NCBI GenBank assembly: GCA_036490175.1
Contig: DASXEJ010000122.1
Location: forward strand, 1-64,000
Direction of reading: 5' to 3'
Length of the DNA: 64,000 nucleotides
Origin: Pirellulales bacterium
Lineage (GTDB): Bacteria > Planctomycetota > Planctomycetia > Pirellulales > JACPPG01
Shown: positions 19,743 through 25,060 of the stretch, piece after piece
How the letters are laid out: the number at the start of each line of letters is the position of its first letter
Position numbering within the stretch: position 1 is the first letter of the stretch
The notes under the pieces: model-generated
What the model saw: only the letters and a program-made list of their open reading frames with translations
Database searches by the model: none
Told to the model about the DNA's origin: nothing
Program-made: the position numbers and the translations under genes

Positions 19743-21431
19743 TCAACTCGCGATTCCCTCAAGGAATCCTTCGAGCTGCTTACTCCTGACCGGATGCTGT
19801 AGCTTGCGGACAGCTTTGGCTTCGATCTGTCTCACCCGTTCCCTCGTCACTTTGAAGATCCGCCCCACCTCTTCCAAAGTATAGGTGTAACCGTCGCCAA
19901 GTCCATATCGCAGCCGAATGATCTCGCGCTCGCGATAGGTGAGCGTCTTGAGCAGGTTCTCGATGCGGTCCCGCAGCATGCTCTGCGCGGCGGTCGTCAG
20001 CGGGCTTTGCGAGGCATTATCCTCGATGAACTCCCCAAACGAGCTATCCTCGCTCTCGCCCACCGGCCGATCCAGGCTGATCGGGTGGCGGCCGATATTG
20101 AGCACCCGGCGGGTTTCCTCGACGCTGATGTCGGCCGCGCGGGCGGTCTCTTCGGTCGTCGGCTCGCGCCCTAGCTCCTGCACCAGCCGCTTCGACACAT
20201 TGCGCAGCCGCGACAATACGTCGATCATATGCACAGGAATGCGAATCGTGCGGGCCTGATCGGCGATGGCGCGGGTGATCGCTTGACGGATCCACCAGGT
20301 GGCATACGTCGAAAACTTGTAACCGCGGCGATACTCGTACTTATCCACGGCCCGCATCAGACCGGTATTCCCTTCCTGGATCAGGTCCAGAAAGCTGAGC
20401 CCGCGATTGCGGTACTTTTTGGCGATCGACACGACCAATCGCAAGTTTCCGCCGGACAACTCGCGTTTGGCATTCTCGTAATCGCGGAATTGCTCGCGCA
20501 TCAGCATGCAACGCTTCCGCAGGCTGGCCGGGCCCTCGAGCGTGATCAGCATCAGATCTCGCAGTTCTTTACGCAGGTTGGCCCGCTCGTCCTTGGCCGA
20601 GCCCAGGCCATCTAACCGCGTGATACGGCCCTGCAACTCGCCCATGCGACGGGCGATCTCGGAAAGCTGGTTGAGCAGCGGCTGCACGCGGCGAGTGCGC
20701 AGACTCAATTCCTCGACCAGCGTCAGCGCCTTATGGCGCCGCGACAAGAAGCGCCGACGGGCGGCGATGCGCTCGTCGCGGGCTACCTTGCGACTGATGA
20801 TCTGCCGGAAATCGCGCCGGTTCTCCGACAGCAGATGGTTGAGGGTCTTCAGATTATGGGGCATCCGCGCCATGATCTGCTCTTTGGTCAATCGCTCGGT
20901 CAGCGAGACCTTGATCGTGCGATCGAACGGCAGGCTGCCGTCATGTACGCACGACAGCGTGTTGATCGTGGCTTGCATGGCGTAATCGCAGCCCAACACC
21001 GTGCGGCGAAATCGCTTGCGGGTCACTTCGATTTTCTTGGCCAGAGCGATCTCCTGCTCGCGGGTGAGCAGAGGAATTTCCGCCATCTGGGTCAAGTACA
21101 TCCGCACGGGATCTTCGTTCCAACGCGACGTGTCGTCCATCGACACGACACGTACAGACTCCTTGGGCGGAGCGTCCTCGTCGAAACGAACTGTGACTTC
21201 GTGCGTGCTGACGTTGTCGCTCGACTCGCCGACCGGTTCGGCCACATCCAGGTCGGGCGCCTCGTTGCACAGCGAGATCCCCAAATCGTCCAACGCCACC
21301 AAAAGGCTGTCGAGCTTGTCGGGGTTGACGGCCTCGTCGGGCAGGTACTCATTGACCTGATCGTAGGTCAAATAGCCCTGGGCTTTACCCAACGCAACCA
21401 ATTCTTCGAGGTCGATATCCGAGTGATCCAC
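19743..21431 (-). CDS. rpoD: RNA polymerase principal sigma factor (RpoD)
   Basis: Housekeeping sigma-70 factor of 562 residues. Region 1.1 is at the N-terminus (about 1-75), region 1.2 near [22 protein letters not shown], then a basic non-conserved insert. Region 2 has [23 protein letters not shown] and [13 protein letters not shown], region 3 [14 protein letters not shown], and region 4 [17 protein letters not shown] with [15 protein letters not shown]. The GTG at 21431 follows GGGAGG at the right distance and gives [15 protein letters not shown]; the frame is open 32 codons further upstream. It lies 118 bases after dnaG, as in the classical macromolecular-synthesis operon, without rpsU. 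Confidence 0.96.
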
Positions 21432-21549
21432 CTGACATCCTCCCGCGCCTGTGTCATGCGCGTCTTGGACAACGATTATGATCTCCGCTGTCTGGCCGAA
21501 GCAAGGGTCACATCTGGCCAGCCACATCGATCAGGCGTCAATGCATCCT

Positions 21550-23388
21550 CTACCCATCCGTGGGCACGGAAATACCTTGACGACTTCGCTCACGCTCAAT
21601 GATCTGTTGCAAAATCTCTACTGCTGCCTGTCCATCCACACGGCGCTGCGCCAGCACCGAGGTTTGTCGACGTTGCTCCGCATCGTCGAGTTTTCCCTTA
21701 TAACGCGCTAAGATCTGTTCCAGCTTGGCGGACCCATCGGTCCCCCCCTTGGCTCGCCCACGCTCGTCGAGATCGACGAGCAGACTCTTCAGCTCGGGCT
21801 CTTCAAACTCCACGAGCAGCCGGTCGAATAAGGATGTGCTCGTACCGACCAACTCGTAGCATCTTGTCAGAATCGCGCGGGCCGCCGGCGATGTCAACTG
21901 TTCGGTCGAAATTTCCTCGCGCATGCGGGTCAAACACTCAGGAACCAGTAGTGCGACCTCTAGCAATTCTCGTTCCCAAGAATCCAGCACGGGCGTAGGC
22001 TTCGTCGGCGCCTGGGTTTTTCCGATCGGGCGCTCTCCCGATGTCTTCCGCATAGAAGTCAACCGATCCCGCACCCGTTCTTCGGCAATGCCGAATTTCA
22101 CGGCCAATCGATTCAAGATCTGTTCTTCTTTGAGCCGCGCGGCGCCGGCCGTGGCCGCGGGAAGACGTGGCGCCTTGGCCAGCGTACCCAACACCTCCTC
22201 CAAGGCCCGATTCGCGTCATGTACACCGGCATTGGCCGCTAGCGAGCCGGTCGCCGCCTGGAATTTGTGCTCGAGTGCATCCGCCGAGCCAGCCAGCAGC
22301 TCCTGGAAGGCTGGCGCTCCGCGGGTGAGCAGAAAATCGCATGGATCCAAGTTGTCGGGCAATGTCAAAACACGCAAATCGATCGGTTCGGCGATGAACA
22401 TTTCCAGCAGTTGGTCGGTCCGCTTGCGACCTGCTTCGTCGCCGTCGAGCACCAGGATTACCCGATCGGCGTAACGCCGCAACAGACGCAGATGCCGTTC
22501 ACCGAGCGCGACCCCCAAAACGGCCACGGCATTTGAGATGCCGGATTGCTGCGCGATCAGGCAATCGGTATACCCCTCCATCACGACCGCGGTCTGCTGC
22601 TTGGCAATGGCATCTCGTGCCACGTCCAGCCCGTAGAGCAAATTGCTCTTCGAATACAGTGGTGTCTCGGGCGAGTTGATGTATTTGGCGGTCGCCGCGG
22701 CCGGTTGGTCGCCGGCGTTGGGCATGATGCGCCCGCCAAAACCGACAGGACGCCCCTGACCATCGCGAATCGAAAACAACACGCGGCCGCGAAACCGGTC
22801 ATAGTGCCCTGGGCCGCTCTGCCGTCGCACCAACAGACCGATTGTTTCCAAAACTTGCGGTGTAAAGCGGGTCCCACGAGCCTGCGCGACGATCCATTCC
22901 CATTCGGGGGGCGCAAATCCCAAATGAAAGCTGCGTACCGTTTCTTCGGTCAGGCCCCGCTCAGTCAGGTACTGACGCGCCGGAGCCGCAGCCGGCGACT
23001 TGACGAGGAACTGGTGATACTGGTCTTCGGCCCAGGCCATGGCCTGGTGCAGCAGCTGCTTATCCTCGCCAGCGCGATTTCCTCTGCCTGACACGACGAG
23101 CTGAATCCCGGCGCGCTCGGCCAGTAGCGCAAGCGCTTCGGGAAAGCTCAGGTTCTCCATCTTCATGACGAAGCTGAAAATGTCGCCGCCAATATCGCAG
23201 GGATAGCATTTGAACGATTGCCGCTCGGGATTGACCTGCAAGCTCGGACGCGAATCGTCGTGCCAGGGGCAGAGTGCCTTGTAGTTGCGTCCTTCGCGGC
23301 GCAACTGTAGATAATCGCCGATCAGGTCGACGATGTTAATCGCCCGTTTGACCTGTTCCTTGATCTCGAAGGATGATCCGGAAGACAC
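21550..23388 (-). CDS. dnaG: DNA primase
   Basis: Synthesises RNA primers for replication. The CHC2 zinc finger is in CPWHDDSRPS and FKCYPCDIGG near residues 40-65; the primase core holds the TOPRIM acidic residues in VVMEGYTDCLIA and ILVLDGDEAGRK. The C-terminal part would contact DnaB. I chose the GTG at 23388 (612 residues) because GCGGAG lies just before it and the next codons match family N-termini (SSFEIKEQVKRAINIVDLI); a TTG at 23418 is the longer option. It is expressed with rpoD from the promoter at 23594-23622. Confidence 0.95.
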   Translation of the reverse strand: MSSGSSFEIKEQVKRAINIVDLIGDYLQLRREGRNYKALCPWHDDSRPSLQVNPERQSFKCYPCDIGGDIFSFVMKMENLSFPEALALLAERAGIQLVVSGRGNRAGEDKQLLHQAMAWAEDQYHQFLVKSPAAAPARQYLTERGLTEETVRSFHLGFAPPEWEWIVAQARGTRFTPQVLETIGLLVRRQSGPGHYDRFRGRVLFSIRDGQGRPVGFGGRIMPNAGDQPAAATAKYINSPETPLYSKSNLLYGLDVARDAIAKQQTAVVMEGYTDCLIAQQSGISNAVAVLGVALGERHLRLLRRYADRVILVLDGDEAGRKRTDQLLEMFIAEPIDLRVLTLPDNLDPCDFLLTRGAPAFQELLAGSADALEHKFQAATGSLAANAGVHDANRALEEVLGTLAKAPRLPAATAGAARLKEEQILNRLAVKFGIAEERVRDRLTSMRKTSGERPIGKTQAPTKPTPVLDSWERELLEVALLVPECLTRMREEISTEQLTSPAARAILTRCYELVGTSTSLFDRLLVEFEEPELKSLLVDLDERGRAKGGTDGSAKLEQILARYKGKLDDAEQRRQTSVLAQRRVDGQAAVEILQQIIERERSRQGISVPTDG

Positions 23389-23512
23389 CGGCAACTCCGC
23401 GGCAACGAGGAGAAACAATCCGTTACCCGCGCGCGCTCATAGAGAAAAATCAGCGCACGGCAATCGCCGTGACGCGTGGATCGAGAAGCGCGGGACTCAA
23501 GGCTGTGAACAG

Positions 23513-23547
23513 AAAAACGCGCGGCACCAAATGTCGGGGAGTGCCGC
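23513..23547 (-). promoter_or_regulatory. Attenuator-like hairpin in the dnaG-rpoD leader
   Basis: On the minus strand GCGGCAC pairs with GTGCCGC (7 bp, 13-base loop), followed by GCG and then five T. It lies about 40 bases after the predicted transcription start and 125 bases before dnaG. It looks like an intrinsic terminator placed to limit read-through into dnaG and rpoD; this is inference. Confidence 0.6.
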
Positions 23548-23593
23548 CTTGCAGTTCACTCGTGCTAACGTCTCTGGGTCAAAAGCGGCGGGG

Positions 23594-23622
23594 ATTATAG
23601 CCCTCATAAAAATAGGGGTCAA
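23594..23622 (-). promoter_or_regulatory. Sigma-70 promoter of dnaG-rpoD
   Basis: TTGACC (23622-23617), 17 bases, then TATAAT (23599-23594) on the minus strand: a near-consensus promoter. The start would be near 23587, about 200 bases before the dnaG GTG. Confidence 0.85.
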
Positions 23623-23751
23623 GCTAAGACTCGGGTAGCTGCGAATGCACGGTTTTCATCGGCAATTACGCAATTTTATACGACACATTTCCGCGGCGCG
23701 CCACGTGCTATCACGCTGTGCCAGCGCACTGGCGAACGCGGCATGACGTCG

Positions 23752-24954
23752 TTAACGCCGCCCGCGGAGGTTGTCTGGTCTCTGCCCCACTTTCACTTCG
23801 ATGGTCTGCTTGGCGCCGTTACGCCACACAATGACCTTGGCCGTCGAGCCCACATCGGAAGCGGCGACGGCCAGCACCAAATCGGTTGCGTCCACGACGG
23901 CGCGCCCATTCCACTCCACGATCACGTCTCCCGCTTCTACGCCGGCGGCACTGGCCGGCGAATTGGCCAGCACCTCGGCCACCAGTGCGCCGTGCTCGCT
24001 CGGCAATCCCATGTTCTGCACGATCTGTTCGTTCAATTCTTGAAAGCGCACACCGAGCCAGCCACGCGGAACACGACCGTTCTTGATAATTTGTTCATAA
24101 CTGTGCCGGGCGGTCTCGCTGGGGATCGAGAAACTGATCCCCTGGTACGAGCGGCCCACGATCGCGGTGTTGACGCCCACCACCTGGCCCACCATGTTGA
24201 CCAACGGTCCGCCGCTGTTGCCGGGATTCACCGCGGCATCGGTTTGCAAAAAGTCCTGATAGGAGTTGGCCGGCGCGATCTTGCGACGTTGCGTGGCGCT
24301 GACGATGCCGCAGGTCACCGTACGGTCCAGGCCGTAGGGGTTACCGATGGCCAGCACCCAGTCCCCCACGTCCAGGTCTTCGCTTTTTCCCCACACGACG
24401 CTCGTCAGATCGGGGGCATTGATCTTGAGCACGGCCAAATCCGTGAGTTCGTCGTCGCCGACCAGCGAAACCTCCTTGATCGTGCGGCCGTCGGCCAGGT
24501 TGACCTGAATCGCCGTGGCATTTTCCACAACATGGCGGTTGGTCAGAATGTAACCGGCGGAATCGACGACAAAGCCCGATCCCTGACCCTGCAACATCTG
24601 TTGCCGGCGCCCCGGCAGCCTGAAGACCATTTCGTCCTGGCCGCTGCCGGCAAGCTGTTCGACGTCGATGTGAACGACACAGAGTTCGACCTTCTGCGCG
24701 ACAAGGCTGAACACGCGCGATGTGTCGGCGAGCGTCACCAGCCCAGCGGTGGTCGAGAGCTTTGCCAATTCCTCGCTGGCGACGTCCGCTCGCGCCCGCA
24801 TTTTGCCCCGCGCCGCGGCGTATTGAACGCGTTCGACCAGGTACGGAAGCGCCGCTACAACGACCAGCAGTGCCAGCAAGAAAAACAGCGCCAAAGGTCG
24901 GCGCGGCGGCGGAGGCGGCGGTGAAGGGGGACGATTGTAGTCGAAGTCCTGCAT
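23752..24954 (-). CDS. HtrA/DegP-type serine protease with one PDZ domain
   Basis: Membrane-anchored quality-control protease of 400 residues. A Pro-rich cytoplasmic N-terminus is followed by one membrane helix (about 24-42). The trypsin-like domain has its triad in ILTNRHVV (His), LTDLAVLKI (Asp) and NPGNSGGPL (Ser). One PDZ domain follows (RGWLGVRF... to VIVWRNGAKQTIEVKV). I chose ATG 24954, which gives MQDFDYNRPPS; the frame is open 33 codons further. The predicted promoter -10 is at 25001-25006, giving a leader of about 40 bases. Confidence 0.93.
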   Translation of the reverse strand: MQDFDYNRPPSPPPPPPRRPLALFFLLALLVVVAALPYLVERVQYAAARGKMRARADVASEELAKLSTTAGLVTLADTSRVFSLVAQKVELCVVHIDVEQLAGSGQDEMVFRLPGRRQQMLQGQGSGFVVDSAGYILTNRHVVENATAIQVNLADGRTIKEVSLVGDDELTDLAVLKINAPDLTSVVWGKSEDLDVGDWVLAIGNPYGLDRTVTCGIVSATQRRKIAPANSYQDFLQTDAAVNPGNSGGPLVNMVGQVVGVNTAIVGRSYQGISFSIPSETARHSYEQIIKNGRVPRGWLGVRFQELNEQIVQNMGLPSEHGALVAEVLANSPASAAGVEAGDVIVEWNGRAVVDATDLVLAVAASDVGSTAKVIVWRNGAKQTIEVKVGQRPDNLRGRR

Positions 24955-25000
24955 CGTCCCCTCGTTTCCGCAACGGTGTCGTGGCTGGTAGCTAGTTCTC

Positions 25001-25006
25001 ATTATA
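25001..25006 (-). promoter_or_regulatory. -10 element of the protease gene
   Basis: A perfect TATAAT on the minus strand about 47 bases before the protease ATG. No close -35 match is present at 17 bases, so the promoter may be activator-dependent. Confidence 0.45.
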
Positions 25007-25060
25007 GTTGAACTGCGAGGCATGTGCAGCAAACGCGTCGCACCGTCGCGCACGAATTGC

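Follow-up and report, generated by a model that had tools for sequence, protein, structure and literature searches.

A conserved promoter and candidate CsrA-type leader hairpins at the dnaG-rpoD operon of Pirellulales, the hairpins being absent from one genus

In Escherichia coli, dnaG and rpoD belong to the rpsU-dnaG-rpoD operon, which has a terminator before dnaG. The locus described here lies on the minus strand of the window, i.e., the whole 64,000-nucleotide stretch of a Pirellulales genome that was analyzed (genome G000, contig C122), and it resembles the E. coli operon in that dnaG, which encodes primase (21550..23388, with a GTG start at 23388), is followed downstream by a gene for an rpoD-like housekeeping sigma factor (19743..21527, with a putative start codon). 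Unlike in E. coli, rpsU is located on another contig (C238), the upstream neighbor of dnaG is an HtrA-like trypsin/PDZ protease gene on the same strand (23752..25053, minus), and the hairpin before dnaG is inside the leader of dnaG's own promoter. This untranslated leader is approximately 200 bases long (23389..23588, minus), with a putative transcript start near 23587 as judged from the -10 box. The preliminary description of this DNA took rpsU to be gone and a terminator-like site, comparable to the terminator between rpsU and dnaG in E. coli, to have stayed in the leader. The former is incorrect, and the latter is not supported: rpsU is elsewhere, a protease gene is upstream, and no sign was found that the hairpin descends from the E. 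coli terminator. The protease reading frame ends just before the dnaG promoter, and, by eye, similar reading frames seem to end at the same spot in the upstream regions of relatives from several families (L014, L016, L022, and L025).

The other described systems that are close to this locus are leaders controlled by CsrA. NMR work places the high-affinity site of CsrA/RsmE in a hexaloop, ANGGAX, that sits directly on top of a stem (PMC4005645), and a second source likewise gives an ANGGAN hexaloop on a stem as the high-affinity site and states that a CsrA dimer bridges sites 10 to 63 nt apart, best above 18 (PMC7652899). The glgC-type CsrA-repressed leaders of E. coli combine a GGA in an upstream loop with a GGA at the ribosome-binding site, which is also the arrangement in relatives of the window's genome, where the GGA spacing likewise falls within the bridging range (PMC7652899). 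CsrA repression of rpoE in E. coli is similar in that the mRNA of a sigma factor has CsrA sites at and near its ribosome-binding site (PMC7652899). The present case differs from the glgC type in that the predicted target is an operon for primase and the main sigma factor, in Pirellulales, and in that the window's genus is without a stable hairpin; it differs from rpoE, which encodes an alternative sigma factor, in that the operon holds the housekeeping sigma factor together with primase. The occurrence of CsrA in Planctomycetes is already in print (PMC10729762). Among titles and abstract openings of the open literature, there was no report of CsrA acting on the mRNA or leader of dnaG or rpoD and none of such a CsrA target in Planctomycetes or Rhodopirellula, and the main text of an E. 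coli CLIP-seq paper (PMC5694010) mentions neither dnaG nor rpoD. The mechanism is known, and dnaG-rpoD would be a new candidate target of CsrA.

The promoter consists of the -35 box TTGACC (23617..23622, minus) and the -10 box TATAAT (23594..23599, minus), which are separated by a 17-base spacer and are both conserved in the order. This sequence (23622..23594, minus) is present as originally described, matches the consensus at 11 of 12 positions, and is approximately 205 bases upstream of dnaG. A promoter scan gave 3 promoter-like sites in 2 kb versus 0.4 in shuffles. Exact TTGACN-16/18-TATAAT is a rare sequence, because it occurs 3 times in 884,062 sampled strand-bases of the window's genome; in G025 it occurs once in 776,328 strand-bases, at dnaG. 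When at least 10 of 12 positions matching TTGACC-16/18-TATAAT within 400 bases of dnaG were counted as a promoter match, 38 of 53 loci in a first set from the order Pirellulales, the window's genome included, had a match (30 exact), as did 23 of 49 loci in a held-out set (8 exact), with antisense controls of 0 and 1, respectively. These matches lie mostly 60 to 300 bases before the gene across the order. Because of this conservation before dnaG, the promoter is taken to be real, and the near-consensus promoter proposed earlier for dnaG-rpoD is borne out: the operon is predicted to be driven by a housekeeping-type (sigma-70) promoter conserved across Pirellulales. The promoter is far beyond chance, whereas the GC hairpin in the leader is only mildly so. 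Among the papers listed by a literature search, none is, judged by its title, about transcript starts in planctomycetes.

Many dnaG leaders in the order carry one or two ANGGAN hairpins, often together with a GGA at the ribosome-binding site. Hexaloop stems of at least 5 pairs with at least two G-C pairs were counted in a first set of 52 promoter-bearing leaders (8,390 bases), from which loci L071-L094, leaders lacking a promoter call, and any leader that was no longer than 60 bases or contained N were excluded; duplicates of one species between two sources were also kept out of the counts. A.GGA. loops account for 26 of the 102 hexaloop stems (next class, 3), compared with 0 on the antisense strand, 0 in an equal stretch upstream of the -35 box, and a mean of 0.16 (maximum of 2) in 100 rounds of shuffling. 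This corresponds to approximately 310 per 100 kb in the leaders versus 1.1 to 8.0 per 100 kb, depending on the class of region, in two genome samples. The A.GGA. class had been spotted by eye in the first set before counting, and the clean test is thus the held-out set only, which comprises the upstream regions of 60 further genomes minus L216 (30 bases) and ten duplicates, i.e., 49 leaders, and which also includes close kin of the first set. In the held-out leaders, 24 of 70 hexaloop stems are A.GGA. (next class, 2; antisense, 0; upstream control, 1). With stems of at least 4 pairs, ANGGAN hairpins are present in 27 of 52 leaders of the first set and 21 of 49 held-out leaders and absent from 25 and 28, respectively, counts that overstate independence because many carriers are close kin; within the held-out set, none was detected in the 11 leaders of family f7 or the 4 of f8. 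The stems differ between families (TTGCC/GGCAA, GGTC/GACC, CGGCAA/TTGCCG, and CGTGCT/GGCACG); families f18, f3, and f16 include carriers of the hairpin. In L007, L008, L010, and L018, GGGTC-AAGGTG-GACCC stands where other families have GGTC-AAGGAA-GACC, so that GGT replaces GGA. Upstream of genes in general, A.GGA. hairpins are in small excess at most (5 in 62 kb of G025 and 2 in 88 kb of G000), and given this small excess in the two sampled genomes, a genome-wide Csr regulon is not claimed.

Covariation was evaluated in 16 leaders (14 of family f18 and two of unknown family) that were picked by eye for their layout, and the result accordingly tests the stems, not the frequency of the layout. 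Pairing holds in 91.4% of the cells of the two stems, compared with 20-43% when they are slid by 1-3 columns, and the covariation score is 0.297 versus 0.208 in shuffles, with 0 of 500 as high. Nine cells changed on both sides of the stems versus 3.3 in shuffles, and the GGA in the loop of the second hairpin is identical in all 16 leaders. In seven leaders outside the window's genus, GGAs are found at -34 and -10, 24 bases apart. The equivalent upstream GGA is unpaired with a probability of 0.96-1.00 in seven folded f18 leaders; leaders of family f3 fold less clearly, with unpaired probabilities of 0.12-0.72.

The five leaders of the window's genus are all without an ANGGAN hexaloop hairpin under the rule of at least 5 pairs and at least two G-C pairs. 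The window has ACGGAT (23418..23423, minus), with its GGA 33 bases before the start codon, where family f18 carries its CsrA-type hairpin but here with no stable stem, and GCGGAG in the Shine-Dalgarno region (23395..23400, minus), with its GGA 10 bases before the start codon. A-C-GGA is found at -33, -33, -32, and -30 in four of the five genus leaders, close to the f18 spacing, and GGAG is found at -10 or -9 in all five. Two GGAs within bridging distance (one at -30 to -34, the other at -10 or -9) are present in 4 of 5 genus members and in 7 of 7 other leaders examined. The genus GGA at -33 is mostly paired in folding, with an unpaired probability of 0.01-0.39, and we regard this site as eroded or weak. 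For the window itself, CsrA control was rejected as an established feature, given that the hairpin test fails in all five genus genomes and the GGA is mostly paired. On a quick tree of 50 DnaG proteins, which has 11 open forks and for which some of the labeled leaders had no promoter call, 10 changes are required to explain the hairpin label (mean of 15.8 in shuffles), and the window's genus is placed among carriers and non-carriers. Carriers occur on both sides of the midpoint root, which is compatible with either gain or loss; loss of the hairpin in the window's genus is plausible.

CsrA is encoded in all 57 genomes searched, in 2-14 copies (14 in G017). Ten paralogues, several with long divergent tails, occur in the window's genome, with paralogue contigs C208, C119, C311, C359, C356, C299, C245, and C153. 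Because the loops match the published high-affinity site and CsrA is present in 57 of 57 genomes, we infer CsrA control of the operon in relatives. In the mechanism proposed, the strong housekeeping-type promoter would transcribe dnaG-rpoD with the approximately 200-base leader, CsrA-family proteins would bind the ANGGAN loops in the dnaG leaders of relatives and, where the spacing allows, bridge the loop to the ribosome-binding site, and this binding would set the amount of primase and main sigma factor made. In the window's genus, the strong hairpins are absent and only the GGA pair at -33/-10, poorly exposed in folding, is left, so that CsrA control would be at best weak or lost there. A conserved promoter with a CsrA-type leader in many relatives, weak or lost in the window's genus, is the best explanation overall, and we give it a slight preference. 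With similarly modest confidence, CsrA proteins may well govern dnaG-rpoD translation directly via ANGGAN hexaloops across much of Pirellulales, the window's genus having shed the hairpins.

A different binding partner for the A-N-GGA-N hairpins of relatives, or a role for them as ribosome standby sites, appears improbable to us. CsrA binding is itself a prediction, and three of the hairpins (L011, L019, and L026) hold GGAG, which could be a ribosome-binding word; however, the loop is exactly the published high-affinity CsrA site rather than GGAG in general, most of the hairpins are located well before the start codon, and no genome searched is without CsrA. In the window's genus, which lacks the ANGGAN hairpins of relatives, the leader carries another hairpin. 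This GC hairpin (23521..23547, minus) is composed of GCGGCACT and GGTGCCGC on either side of an 11-base loop, begins approximately 46 bases after the -10 box, and has a GC-rich stem of 8 pairs with an energy of -12.3 kcal/mol; it is followed by GCG and then by T5 (23513..23517, minus). The preliminary description was correct in placing a GC hairpin (23547..23521) and T5 (23517..23513) downstream of the promoter and well before dnaG, and it interpreted them as an intrinsic terminator that attenuates dnaG-rpoD.

This attenuator seems unlikely. In its favor, a hairpin is found at the same place in all five genus genomes with different, self-complementary stem sequences, which suggests some constraint within the genus, and shuffles attain the stem score of the window's hairpin 10 times in 200 and, for its counterparts in the other four genomes, 5, 9, 30, and 104 times in 200. 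The bases that follow are mostly T-rich, with T6 in G001, but the T run is short or broken in G003, G004, and G002. Hairpin-plus-T sites are somewhat more frequent in regions of the window's genome labeled upstream than in coding regions (21.8 versus 15.2 per 100 kb), location classes that are rough because the gene calls behind them are longest-ORF calls; the GC hairpin itself is labeled antisense to a spurious ORF. Against the attenuator, the hairpin is 33rd when the 142 hairpin-plus-T4 sites in a 442-kb sample of the window's genome are ordered by energy. The strongest of these sites have -16 to -33 kcal/mol and T6-9, mostly at a gap of 0-1, while the T run here is only T5 and starts after a 3-base gap. 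A terminator scan with a loop limit of 8 did not list the GC hairpin, the loop of which is 11. The folding energy of the 83-base stretch around the hairpin is not unusual for the composition, being matched by 95 of 200 shuffles. On the weak rank and the gapped T5 relative to the strong terminators of the genome, a terminator was set aside as the main explanation. Conservation in relatives, which had been named as potential support, extends across the order for the promoter, whereas the hairpin was noted only in the genus, with a variable T run, and no comparable hairpin-plus-T element stood out by eye in the leaders of other families. The hairpin may instead be a mere stabilizing or spacer structure near the mRNA 5' end without conditional regulation, a reading that is possible but that we hold tentatively. 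The stem keeps its position and not its sequence, and the fold of the window's whole leader is equaled by 150 of 200 shuffles. A plain spacer, however, would need neither the T-rich bases that recur past the stem nor the GACCCACA that is shared by three of the five loops. A 5' stem, or a weak site of pausing or termination, is a more probable role for the GC hairpin and its T5 than efficient attenuation. No Rfam family reached its gathering score in the window, and 20 upstream regions taken from relatives had no match with E values up to 1. A T run and then GCGC (TTTTTTTTGCGC) is a frequent ending of the clear terminators in the sampled 442 kb of G000.

The attenuator as earlier proposed would be ordinary. 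If CsrA control of dnaG-rpoD holds in relatives, the reach of a CsrA network would extend beyond metabolism, motility, and alternative sigma factors to primase, which is essential, and to the housekeeping sigma factor. Both the priming of replication and the supply of main sigma factor would be coupled to the Csr network, in bacteria that have as many as 14 copies of CsrA. Such control would also suggest a testable function for the numerous CsrA copies in Pirellulales and make the order a natural comparison of the dnaG-rpoD operon with and without Csr control.

The leader of the window contains a second hairpin, CACGGC-GATT-GCCGTG (23456..23471, minus), which is unusually stable for its composition (z of -3.8), is followed after six bases by T5 (23449-23445, minus), and does not recur in this form across the genus. 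A GCTT(N)TTGACCC-like word occurs in up to four copies in the promoter and leader of genus members (23460-23625 in the window; L003-L006), the positions being the -35 box, the vicinity of the transcript start, the hairpin loop (three of five), and a site approximately 110 bases further on; these copies may be repeats that bind a protein at the DNA level or may have arisen by duplication. An AAGGAG hairpin in L019 has this word as its arm.
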